From positions 186,001 through 250,000 of the forward strand of contig NZ_CP043312.1 of assembly GCF_008189685.1 (NCBI RefSeq): a stretch of DNA of 64,000 nucleotides, given 5' to 3'. Positions within the stretch are counted from its first letter, which is position 1; the number at the start of each line of letters is the position of its first letter. The notes below the pieces were generated by a model, which saw only the letters and a list, made by a program, of their open reading frames with translations, did not search any database and was not told where the DNA came from. Both the position numbers and the translations under genes were made by a program. Shown in pieces: positions 12,402 through 16,663 of this stretch. The stretch is from Candidatus Sneabacter namystus (GTDB taxonomy: Bacteria; Pseudomonadota; Alphaproteobacteria; Rickettsiales; Rickettsiaceae).

Positions 12402-13387
12402 GTTATAGCGTTAAAATGCGATTCTAAATTTTCTGGCTCTTCCAGAATGTTACTTAATACAGAGCAGAGATTTGATTTTAGATTTAGCCTATTTGCTAAC
12501 GCTGTTAATTGTAATAAATTGTTTCTTCCTTCCGTTAATATTGGGTAGTCATTGATAAAGTCCATTCTCTTCTCTTTAGGAGTTTGTGCCAACTTATTGC
12601 CAAAAGTGTTGTTTCTTGATCCTGAGTTATTGCAACACAGTGACAAGTCTCCTACAACTTTAGATTGTATAACTTTACATTGAGATGATAGTTGTTTTGA
12701 GAATATTTCTATTTCTTCTAGCGCTAAAGCCACTATCCATGATTTATTATTTGCTCCGTATTCTAGCCCGTCAGACATACCTGATAATATAGCAGCCACA
12801 TTTTTTACACAGCTTGCAATTTGTAAAGACACTATATCTGTTGTTGGGTGAGCAACAAAACTGTCTGTACTGATCAATTTAGATACTTCAAGGGCAAAAG
12901 GCATTGTGTCCGCCCCTACGACAGTATGAGATGGCATATCGCATGCAACTTCTATTGCTAGATTAGGTCCTGCTAGTATAGCGCACCTATTCCCTAATAT
13001 TTTGCTTGTTATTGAGGAGAGAAGAGATCCGTCTGTTAGTAATCCTTTTGTTGCTATTACTATGATAACTTCTTTGCTAATTTTAAGAGAACGTAATTGT
13101 AATAGTGTGTCTTTAAAGTCCTGTGAGGCAATGGAAATGACTATGCACTGAGAATCTTGTATATCTTGAATGTTTGTAGACGATATTAAATTTTTTGGTA
13201 ATAAAGGAAAGCTTGGTAAAGAGATATTTTTTTTATGCGTATTGATTGCATTTGCAACATTTAAGCGGCGTGTAACAATTACCAGCTCATCAACATTTTT
13301 ACATAACTGAATTGCTATTGCCGTTCCCCACGCACCTGCTCCTATTATTGATATTTTTTTTGTAATTTCATATAAAGAAGCATTCAT
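12383..13387 (-). CDS. gpsA: Glycerol-3-phosphate dehydrogenase [NAD(P)+]
   Basis: Makes sn-glycerol-3-phosphate from dihydroxyacetone phosphate for phospholipid synthesis. 334 aa, normal length. Rossmann motif IGAGAWGTA at residues 15-23, ATKGL, GPNLAIEVA, the catalytic lysine K195 in SCVKNVAAI, and GDLSLCC...SRN. One oddity: the family motif NTKxxxxxRG, whose arginine contacts the substrate phosphate/NAD, reads NNKSWIVALA here, with Leu221 where Arg is expected. The start overlaps the mtaB stop by 4 bp; the transcript ends at the hairpin over the stop codon. Confidence 0.93.
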   Translation of the reverse strand: MNASLYEITKKISIIGAGAWGTAIAIQLCKNVDELVIVTRRLNVANAINTHKKNISLPSFPLLPKNLISSTNIQDIQDSQCIVISIASQDFKDTLLQLRSLKISKEVIIVIATKGLLTDGSLLSSITSKILGNRCAILAGPNLAIEVACDMPSHTVVGADTMPFALEVSKLISTDSFVAHPTTDIVSLQIASCVKNVAAILSGMSDGLEYGANNKSWIVALALEEIEIFSKQLSSQCKVIQSKVVGDLSLCCNNSGSRNNTFGNKLAQTPKEKRMDFINDYPILTEGRNNLLQLTALANRLNLKSNLCSVLSNILEEPENLESHFNAITRLKDQ

Positions 13388-14655
13388 GTAACTTTTTGTG
13401 ATAAAACATGATCAGTATTGGCGTGTTTTAGCCTAACCTTAATCAATGTATTCGGTGAGATAACGCCTCCTTCTACTTTGATTGGTATGTAGTTTTCCGT
13501 GTAACCTTTATTATTCTTTTCTATTAAAGTTATATGATGTGTATTTAGATGTTTAGAAAAGAATTCCTGTTGTTGTTGTTTTCCTTCTTTAATTAAAATA
13601 TTTGCACGTATTTTTCGTTTTTCGAAAGCTACCTGAGGCATTCTAGACGCTGGTGTATTTTCATGAGGTGAAAATGGGAATACATGCAAAAATTGAATTT
13701 TTGCCTCTCTAACCAGATCTATTGTATTTTGGAACATTTCTTCTGTTTCGGTAGGAAATCCTGCTATTATGTCAGCTCCGAACGCTATTTCTGGTCTTAA
13801 AGTTCTCACAAAGCTACAAAATTTTAATACTTGTTCTCTTGTATGCCTACGTTTCATTCGTTTTAAAATCATGTTATCTCCAGACTGTAGGCTAAGATGT
13901 ATATGCGGCATGAATCTTGGTTGCGATTGTATCACATCTAACAAATCTTTATTGATTTCTGCTACATCTACAGAAGATAATCTTAATCTAGGAAGGTCAG
14001 GAACTAAGTTTAAAATTCTCTTTACCATTTGCCCCAACGTGGGTTCGCCTGGTAAGTCTTTTCCATAATCAGTAATATCTACTCCAGTAAGTACAACCTC
14101 TTGATATCCTTTTGATACCAAGGTTTTAATTTGTTGTACTAGAGATCCTATTGGAGTTGACCTACTATTACCTCTTCCAAATGGTATGGTACAAAAAGTG
14201 CATCTGTGATTGCAACCATTTTGTACTTCTAAAAAAGCTCTAGTATGATTTTCGAAGTGCTGAATTATATTTTTATTAGTATGTTTAGAGGACAATATGT
14301 CTCCTACTTGTATCTTATCTTTCAGATTCAGATCAACGTAGCTTTGTTGATTCATTTTTTCTTCGTTTCCAAGCACTAAATTAACACCGTGCATTTGAGA
14401 AAAATCATGCGGTTTAATTTGTGCCGCACAGCCTGTGACTATGATTTTTTTGTTTGGATGTGTTTTACAGGCAGAGTGTACTGCTTGTTTTGATTTTCTG
14501 AGCGCTTCTTGAGTGACTGAACATGTGTTTATTACTATGCACTCTGTACTACTTGTGTCAATTAAATGTTTCTTTATTACCTCTCCTTCGTAAATATTGA
14601 GTCTGCATCCCAAATTTATGACTTGATTACCAGCTGTTTTTATTTTTTCTGCCAT
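13384..14655 (-). CDS. mtaB: tRNA t6A37 methylthiotransferase MtaB
   Basis: Radical SAM enzyme converting N6-threonylcarbamoyl-A37 of tRNA to its 2-methylthio form. 423 aa. N-terminal MTTase domain with cluster cysteines C17 (LGCRLNIYE), C45 (NTCSVT) and C76 (TGCAAQ); radical SAM motif CNHRCTFC (C148, C152, C155) followed by IPFGRGNSRS, which is diagnostic of MtaB rather than MiaB; C-terminal TRAM-like tail. It follows the dapF-containing gene by 6 bp, the dapF-mtaB order seen in other alphaproteobacteria, and overlaps gpsA by 4 bp. Confidence 0.95.
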   Translation of the reverse strand: MAEKIKTAGNQVINLGCRLNIYEGEVIKKHLIDTSSTECIVINTCSVTQEALRKSKQAVHSACKTHPNKKIIVTGCAAQIKPHDFSQMHGVNLVLGNEEKMNQQSYVDLNLKDKIQVGDILSSKHTNKNIIQHFENHTRAFLEVQNGCNHRCTFCTIPFGRGNSRSTPIGSLVQQIKTLVSKGYQEVVLTGVDITDYGKDLPGEPTLGQMVKRILNLVPDLPRLRLSSVDVAEINKDLLDVIQSQPRFMPHIHLSLQSGDNMILKRMKRRHTREQVLKFCSFVRTLRPEIAFGADIIAGFPTETEEMFQNTIDLVREAKIQFLHVFPFSPHENTPASRMPQVAFEKRKIRANILIKEGKQQQQEFFSKHLNTHHITLIEKNNKGYTENYIPIKVEGGVISPNTLIKVRLKHANTDHVLSQKVT

Positions 14656-14661
14656 GTTACT

Positions 14662-16203
14662 TTATAAGGTAAACGTACCTTCTATTGTTTTTTCTACAGG
14701 ACCTTCCATTATAACATTGCTATCTTGCAAAGATAATTGTAAATCTCCTACTGCAAATTTTACTGTTACCTCATCGTTCACGAACCCCATTTTGTTTATT
14801 GCAGAAAATGTCGCACATGCACCGCTACCACATGCTAAAGTAAGTCCAGTGCCTCGTTCCCATACTTTAAGATGGATAGCATCGTTTTTTATTTTTGCGA
14901 AATTGACATTTACTCCCTTTGGAAAAGAGTGATGAGACGAAAGACAGGCTCCTACTTTTGACATAAAATTCTCTGTGATATTTTGGTTGAGAATTACCAA
15001 GTGCGGGTTACCCATATCAACGCACATCATCTCTCTGGCGTTTAAGGAATAATTTTTAGCTAGTTTCCACATGATATCAGATGATGGCATCCATTCTGCT
15101 TGAAACTTTGGTGTTCCCATATTGACACTGATTTTATCTTTTCCTGATACAAAGCACGGTATAACTTTATCTAGAACACGAATGGAGCAGTTCTGTTTGC
15201 CTGTGTCTTGAAAACACAACCAGGCTAAGCATCTTGTAGCATTGCCGCAAACTTCTCCTTTTGAACCATCCTGGTTAAAAACAACCATGCCGTATTCGTC
15301 TGGTAGAGTTTTGGAAAAAACGATCATTTGGTCACATCCAACTCCTAGTCTTCTATCGCATACCAACTTTACTTCATGCTTTGCGTTTTGGTAGTTGAAG
15401 AACTTATCTTCTACTATTACAAAGTCGTTTCCCAAACCATGCATTTTTACGAAAGGTACTTCTTTAGGCATATAATTTATTCGTTCTAGATATTGCATTG
15501 GATTGACGGATATTGTGCCTTTTTGCATAGCAAAATACAATACAGGATGTTCTTTTGTTCCGCATGCCAAGCCTAGCAATTGTTTTTGTTTGACTTGATC
15601 CCCTAATTTAGGAAATGTTTTAGATAGATATGCATACGCAATCTTTATTCCATTTTCTGATCGTATTATTATCGTTTTGCCAAATTGTGAATGCGGGCCT
15701 ACGTATGTTACTTTACCTTGTAATGCACAGTACACTTCTTGATTTTTCTTGGCTGATATATGGATTCCTGATATCGATTTTCCGTTTACTGTTTCTTTAA
15801 ATTTGTTGACTACTTTGCCTTTTATTGGCCACGATAGTGTTATAAGTTTTCCTTTATTGTCATGAATTTTTTTCTTACTCTGGTCGTCATTTTTTAGATC
15901 TTGTTCAAAGAATAATTTTTCATCTGTTAGCTTTTCTTCATAAATTTCTTTTGGCATGCTGTACTGCCTAGTAGCCGCTATATTTTTATCTATTACGGAA
16001 GAGATTATTTTTTCAGGTCGTGGAATTTTCGATACAGTTCCTAAACCTTTCCCAGATGCTAAATTCACCAAATCTGTACTGGTGCAACTACATAGGAACA
16101 AAGCTGGCAAAATTGGTAGCAAATGCCTTAATTTCGATGATATTAAGGTAAGCTGTTCTTTTAATAACATTATTGAGTAAAATTTGTGCATACGTAAATT
16201 CAA
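14662..16203 (-). CDS. dapF: Fused gene: NlpD-like lipoprotein domain + diaminopimelate epimerase
   Basis: One uninterrupted 513-codon frame joins two unrelated proteins. Residues 1-40 form a signal with lipobox LCSC (lipid Cys40; start could also be Met12 at 16170). Residues about 118-236 are an M23/LytM-like domain: GIHISAKKNQEVYCALQGKV, YAYLSK, LYFAMQ and NPMQYL match NlpD/EnvC, but the zinc histidines are missing, as in amidase activators. Residues 245-513 are a complete 269-aa DapF (LL- to meso-DAP epimerase) with both catalytic cysteines, C319 (VCGNATRC) and C458 (ACGSGAC). The DapF part begins at an ATG (15469-15471) with no visible Shine-Dalgarno. A lipoprotein goes to the periplasm while DapF works in the cytoplasm, so internal initiation, cleavage or a lost stop codon must be considered. 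Upstream grx4, downstream mtaB. Confidence 0.88.
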   Translation of the reverse strand: MNLRMHKFYSIMLLKEQLTLISSKLRHLLPILPALFLCSCTSTDLVNLASGKGLGTVSKIPRPEKIISSVIDKNIAATRQYSMPKEIYEEKLTDEKLFFEQDLKNDDQSKKKIHDNKGKLITLSWPIKGKVVNKFKETVNGKSISGIHISAKKNQEVYCALQGKVTYVGPHSQFGKTIIIRSENGIKIAYAYLSKTFPKLGDQVKQKQLLGLACGTKEHPVLYFAMQKGTISVNPMQYLERINYMPKEVPFVKMHGLGNDFVIVEDKFFNYQNAKHEVKLVCDRRLGVGCDQMIVFSKTLPDEYGMVVFNQDGSKGEVCGNATRCLAWLCFQDTGKQNCSIRVLDKVIPCFVSGKDKISVNMGTPKFQAEWMPSSDIMWKLAKNYSLNAREMMCVDMGNPHLVILNQNITENFMSKVGACLSSHHSFPKGVNVNFAKIKNDAIHLKVWERGTGLTLACGSGACATFSAINKMGFVNDEVTVKFAVGDLQLSLQDSNVIMEGPVEKTIEGTFTL

Positions 16204-16306: not shown

Positions 16307-16663
16307 TTATTTGTGACTTTCGATCAAGTTGTTTATTTCCTGAAAAAAAATTCCTTTAGACTCCATTTCGGACACTATATCAGATCCGCCTACAAATACT
16401 TGTTTCACATACAATTGAGGTATTGTTGGCCAATTGCTAAATTGTTTTATTTCTTCTCTAAGATACGGAATAGAAAATATGTTGACATCACAAAACGTAA
16501 ATTTGTTTTTTCTTAAGATGTTGACCACTTGCGCTGAAAAGCCGCATTGAGGAAAGTTGTGTGTACCTTTCATGAACACAACAATAGTTTTTTCTTTTAT
16601 TGTTTTTTGGATAAAATCGATAGCTGTTTTTCTTAATTGATTTTCATCTTCATTTTCTTTCAT
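16307..16663 (-). CDS. grxD: Monothiol glutaredoxin, Grx4 family
   Basis: Carries and delivers [2Fe-2S] clusters as a glutathione-bridged dimer; cytoplasmic. 118 aa. The CGFS active site begins at Cys40 (FPQCGFSAQVV), the WP-T-I-PQLYV block with the cis-proline and the GGSDIVSEM glutathione-binding turn are all present. In alphaproteobacteria grx4 often neighbours bolA; no bolA is adjacent here. Same strand as the NlpD-DapF gene, 103 bp upstream of it. Confidence 0.95.
   Translation of the reverse strand: MKENEDENQLRKTAIDFIQKTIKEKTIVVFMKGTHNFPQCGFSAQVVNILRKNKFTFCDVNIFSIPYLREEIKQFSNWPTIPQLYVKQVFVGGSDIVSEMESKGIFFQEINNLIESHK

Follow-up and report, generated by a model that had tools for sequence, protein, structure and literature searches.

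A LytM-domain lipoprotein gene and dapF in one reading frame of Candidatus Sneabacter namystus: probable loss of a stop codon with retention of the dapF start

Introduction

How does a bacterium come to encode a lipoprotein and a cytosolic enzyme in one uninterrupted reading frame, and how, in that case, is the enzyme obtained in the compartment where its substrate is? The question is raised by an open reading frame of Candidatus Sneabacter namystus located in the stretch of 64,000 nucleotides analysed here (hereafter the window). A first-pass annotation, made from the sequence alone, left three options for this frame: a bifunctional or dual-localised product, internal initiation at the start codon of the second gene, and a recently lost stop codon or a sequencing error. 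Here we weigh these options using comparison with related genomes, domain and structure matches, and the translation start signals of the genome itself.

Results and Discussion

Organization of the fused reading frame

The features of the locus are as follows.

14662..16203, minus strand: fused open reading frame, LytM-domain lipoprotein plus DapF, 513 aa, with a TTG start (at the 16203 side) and a TAA stop
15484..16203, minus strand: upstream module, residues 1-240, consisting of signal peptide, lipobox, linker and degenerate LytM/M23 domain
16084..16095, minus strand: lipobox L37-C38-S39-C40 (LCSC), closing the signal sequence (residues 1-40)
15499..15771, minus strand: Peptidase_M23 (PF01551) match, residues 145-235, E 5e-16
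15472..15483, minus strand: joint, CGA ATA AAT TAT, encoding R-I-N-Y, residues 241-244
15469..15471, minus strand: internal ATG (Met245) at the ancestral dapF start position, in a start-like context
14662..15471, minus strand: dapF, complete diaminopimelate epimerase, 269 aa
15247..15249, minus strand: catalytic Cys319, CGN motif
14830..14832, minus strand: catalytic Cys458, ACGSGA motif
13384..14655, minus strand: mtaB, conserved downstream partner of dapF, separated from it by a 6-base gap and unfused here
16307..16663, minus strand: grxD (Grx4 monothiol glutaredoxin), upstream neighbour, present also in the sister genus

Alternative ATG starts of the fused frame are found at residues 5 and 12. 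The domain matches, the LCSC lipobox and the pair C319/C458 bear out the first-pass description of a single 513-codon frame with a lipobox, an M23/LytM domain and a full-length DapF of 269 aa. The DapF part (residues 251-511) matches TIGR00652 with 253 bits against a cut-off of 114.65, both catalytic cysteines and their flanking motifs are invariant in the DapF alignment, and the structure predicted for the fused protein is confident over the DapF fold, which begins near residue 247; as to the LytM part of this prediction, the alignment was shallow, with too few relatives to judge. In comparison with DipM and EnvC, the ligand-bearing positions of the M23 domain hold GIHI, YAYL and VLYF, which makes the metal site degenerate, and the earlier remark on the missing zinc histidines was thus correct. 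So was the placing of a second ATG at 15469-15471, which is codon 245, and the view of dapF and mtaB as an ordinary operon pair, mtaB being the conserved downstream partner of dapF. Since two complete, conserved and collinear genes are joined, the fused frame is not a product of chance.

Separate genes in the sister genus

In two Rickettsiales metagenome-assembled genomes of the sister genus (G031 and G011) the gene order is grxD-lytM-dapF-mtaB, and lytM and dapF are separate open reading frames. On their contigs (CAJBEU010000002.1 and CANGTI010000001.1) the two genes have the same domains and order as in the window and similar lengths; in contrast to the window, where no stop is present, they are parted by a stop codon and 5-12 nt. 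In G031 lytM and dapF lie in one frame and are parted by just one TAA and 12 nt; the loss of that one stop codon would therefore be enough to create a fusion. In G011 the intervening sequence is a TAG and 5 nt, and the genes are out of frame, which, judging from these sequences, leaves the exact ancestral spacing between lytM and dapF not fixed.

The products of the sister lytM genes end with DPLKYLQ and DPLKYLK, while in the window NPMQYLE is followed by R-I-N-Y-M. The stop codons of both sister genes align with the CGA codon of the window (15483-15481), and the end of the upstream module at residue 240 is the end point of the separate sister genes. The chain 8tzk, an M23-family protein aligning over the same domain, ends one residue beyond this point. 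Cys40 of the lipobox is kept in the alignment with both sister-genus proteins. Protein identity between the window and the sister is 35% for LytM and 47% for DapF, compared to 58% and 68%, respectively, between the sisters themselves. Taken at the level of sequence, the anatomy of the fused frame is explained by a lineage-specific loss of the lytM stop codon.

Rarity of the fusion and the quality of the assembly

Matches with E 1e-15 or better were found in 78 of the 85 family genomes, and only one of the 85, that of the window, has LytM and DapF in one stop-free frame. At the level of the order, DapF was matched in 241 of 344 genomes, and a LytM fusion does not recur among the matches listed, which leave off the weakest ones. 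The search for the same junction in related genomes, which had been proposed by the first-pass annotation, thus returned a single case in the family and nothing further in the listed matches of the order. When 70 LytM loci of the genome collection were compared, dapF was located nearby in just two, those of the sister genomes; a search of the genome contigs with the whole fused protein did not find the same fusion elsewhere, and no DapF-NlpD fusion turned up in a search of the literature. As a separate observation, no DapF match was obtained in genus g23 (G022, G034 and G071, 97-99% complete), whereas such a match is present in almost every other genus of the family.

A fusion present in one genome might be a base error in the assembly, the true genome having two normal genes parted by a stop at this point. 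One wrong base in the CGA codon would be enough for this, and the genus of the window was represented in our comparisons by one genome. Besides, a dapF-mtaB fusion in another genome of the family, described below, sits on a homopolymer difference (T6/T7) typical of such errors. The joint in the window, however, is not a homopolymer, and substitution errors are rarer than indels. Moreover, in a genome-wide comparison with the sisters, the lytM-dapF frame was the only one among 462 open reading frames with a match that corresponded to two adjacent sister frames, and the reverse comparison yielded only paralogue-type or opposite-strand pairs. With no other convincing split or fused gene in about 460 open reading frames and two sisters, the assembly looks clean, its genes being neither joined nor broken at random; a general tendency of the assembly to fuse or split genes was not seen, and an error confined to the joint itself is, in our opinion, rather unlikely.

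The dapF-mtaB fusion mentioned is an in-frame one of 687 aa (L022, G003:C109, 235-2298, minus strand), with a run of T6 where a congener (L021) has T7. This fusion probably reflects an indel, either erroneous or recent, and owing to this T6/T7 difference we rejected it as support for the usefulness of dapF fusions.

Shine-Dalgarno motifs and the 16S rRNA tail

The first-pass annotation counted the lack of a clear ribosome-binding site as a doubt about initiation at the internal ATG. This doubt loses its force in view of the translation signals of the genome. Its 16S rRNA gene is full-length (Rfam RF00177, positions 1-1533; C1:372583-374089, i.e., L054:12583-14089), and has the tail ACCTAAAG in place of ACCTCCTTAAAG; the gene ends with GGATTACCTAAAGAAG, while the end in Rickettsia-like genomes and in most of the family genomes matched is GGATTACCTCCTTAAAGA. 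Shine-Dalgarno matches of five or more bases precede 2% of 94 trusted starts versus 5% of internal in-frame ATGs; four-base matches are modestly commoner at starts (32% versus 19% of internal ATGs). Some host-bound bacteria are known to have lost both the CCTCC core and the Shine-Dalgarno motifs (PMC3522020). As the genome has neither a normal anti-Shine-Dalgarno tail nor long Shine-Dalgarno motifs, the missing ribosome-binding site at the internal ATG carries little weight. With long motifs missing even at trusted starts, the Shine-Dalgarno motif is uninformative here as a test for internal initiation, and we discarded it.

The 16S end of this genome looks as if four bases with the anti-Shine-Dalgarno core had been deleted; the end in the sister genome G011 is CCTCTAAC. 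Upstream of trusted starts, the complement of the altered tail (CTTTAGGTAA) is matched better than in shuffled upstream regions (mean match 3.71 versus 3.19), a level equalled by 1% of shuffled motifs. The excess may reflect a shifted Shine-Dalgarno pairing or just AT-rich composition.

Internal start of dapF

We scored the internal ATG with a start-context model trained on the trusted starts of the genome itself (n=94; AUC 0.88). In this model, which is small and in which AT-richness alone accounts for a part of the signal, ATG245 ranks at the 49th percentile among true starts and at the 93rd among internal ATGs, and it outscores every other in-frame ATG beyond residue 12. The RNA around it, from -30 to +20, is predicted to be unstructured (0.0 kcal/mol), a value reached by 0.3% of internal ATGs, by 7% of true starts and by 8% of those starts that follow closely on an upstream gene. 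No promoter-like site was found just upstream of the internal ATG, such sites being at or below chance in the region, and internal initiation would rely on the upstream transcript. If the stop was lost recently, the start-like context at ATG245 may be no more than a remnant. Nevertheless, the internal dapF ATG still looks usable by these models, and DapF is probably still made separately.

A known parallel is spaO with its internal in-frame start (PMC13059759), where one open reading frame gives a long product and a C-terminal short one, SpaO-short, as is expected here. The differences are that the short form of spaO is experimentally shown and conserved, while that of the window is a predicted one, and that the latter would represent the ancestral gene and not a derived isoform.

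Proposed origin and products of the fused frame

The genome encodes MurE and DapB, which implies that diaminopimelate (DAP) is made and a cytosolic epimerase is needed. No second dapF copy, which would free the fused one from this duty, was found in the 633-kb genome (G000). The account that we prefer, and regard as fairly probable on the present comparison of sequences, is that the lytM stop was lost and that the frame now yields both a free DapF, from the internal ATG, and a read-through LytM-DapF lipoprotein. The common ancestor of the window lineage and the sister genus would have had grxD, the gene of a LytM-domain lipoprotein, dapF and mtaB as consecutive genes. The window lineage would then have lost the stop that closed the lipoprotein gene, most simply by one substitution resulting in CGA. 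As both genes are in the same frame, ribosomes starting at the lipoprotein start would read on into dapF and produce a lipoprotein of 57 kDa that ends in DapF. The start codon of dapF would have been kept and would still be used, so that the normal cytosolic DapF of 30 kDa arises as well, and the latter would supply meso-DAP to MurE. The sequences themselves show the joined frame, its separate counterparts in the sisters, the single dapF copy, the start-like context of its ATG, the altered 16S tail and the genes murE, dapB and lgt. The two protein products, their locations in the cell and the DapF tail being tolerated rather than useful are what we infer from this scheme. Among the three options of the first-pass annotation, a lost stop combined with internal initiation thus gains from the stops of the sister genes, from the uniqueness of the fusion and from the context of the ATG, while the bifunctional product does not.

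According to the latter option, only the 57-kDa fusion is made, and the tethering of DapF is of use to the cell as a true bifunctional or dual-located enzyme. Both modules are indeed complete, a good fold is predicted for DapF within the fusion, and N-terminal extensions of DapF are tolerated in solved structures, the matches to 2otn and 3ejx beginning at chain residues 24 and 28. On the other hand, export would separate DapF from its substrate in the cytosol, the start context of the dapF ATG has been kept, the divergence of LytM and DapF shows no special constraint, the fusion is confined to one genome (among the 85 of the family and the order matches listed), and no Amidase_3 or Amidase_2 was found that would give a meaning to the word 'activator'. 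We consider this reading unlikely; a selected bifunctional enzyme finds no positive support here. That the cell makes use of the LytM-DapF coupling, either through a DapF bound to the cytosolic side of the membrane after failed export or through a dual-located enzyme linking DAP supply and wall remodelling, seems very unlikely.

Small lipoproteins are not always exported efficiently. This would fit one more scheme, in which translation yields the fusion alone and active DapF is released into the cytosol by proteolysis or because export fails, so that no internal start is required. However, the four-residue joint has no recognised cleavage site, nothing specific speaks for such a release, and the start context at ATG245 makes it unnecessary; we regard this scheme as highly improbable.

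With the stop loss and the retained dapF start as the preferred explanation, the locus offers a clear case of operon neighbours with incompatible cell locations joined through one stop loss in a reduced genome. It also offers a test of how a cytosolic enzyme is made from within the frame of an exported protein when the 16S tail is shortened and Shine-Dalgarno motifs are little used. For annotators it is a caution that such open reading frames should not be labelled bifunctional enzymes. NCBIfam includes a DapF type annotated as bifunctional DapF/glutamate racemase (NF038284), for which the window protein scores 88 bits, the cut-off being 350; in contrast to that type, a second function in the window would come from an exported LytM lipoprotein.

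The LytM lipoprotein and its possible partners

The upstream module had been called NlpD-like. The lipoprotein signal is of the NlpD type (LCSC, with the Cys conserved in the sisters), and the degenerate M23 domain is common to the window protein and the LytM factors DipM, EnvC, ActS and NlpD, among which DipM and EnvC are its best relatives with solved structures. The name is a loose one, however: a profile search did not find a LysM domain in the fused protein, and the equivalog cut-offs were not reached for ActS (48.8 against 375 bits), EnvC (44.1 against 270), NlpD (38.6 against 311) or DipM. The window protein also differs from these factors in having no detected Amidase_3 or Amidase_2 partner: Amidase_3 (PF01520) was not found in the genome by a search that was positive in 8 control genomes, and neither was Amidase_2. 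This makes the role of an amidase activator, suggested by the first-pass annotation, doubtful. As for the N-terminal part, its lipidation is possible, since Lgt is present in the genome.

A second open reading frame with an M23 domain, of 538 aa, is located in the same genome (C1:138128-138412). Candidatus Sneabacter namystus is a member of the Rickettsiaceae with a T6SS (PMC11077975), and the second contig of its genome bears a short tssH-like match.
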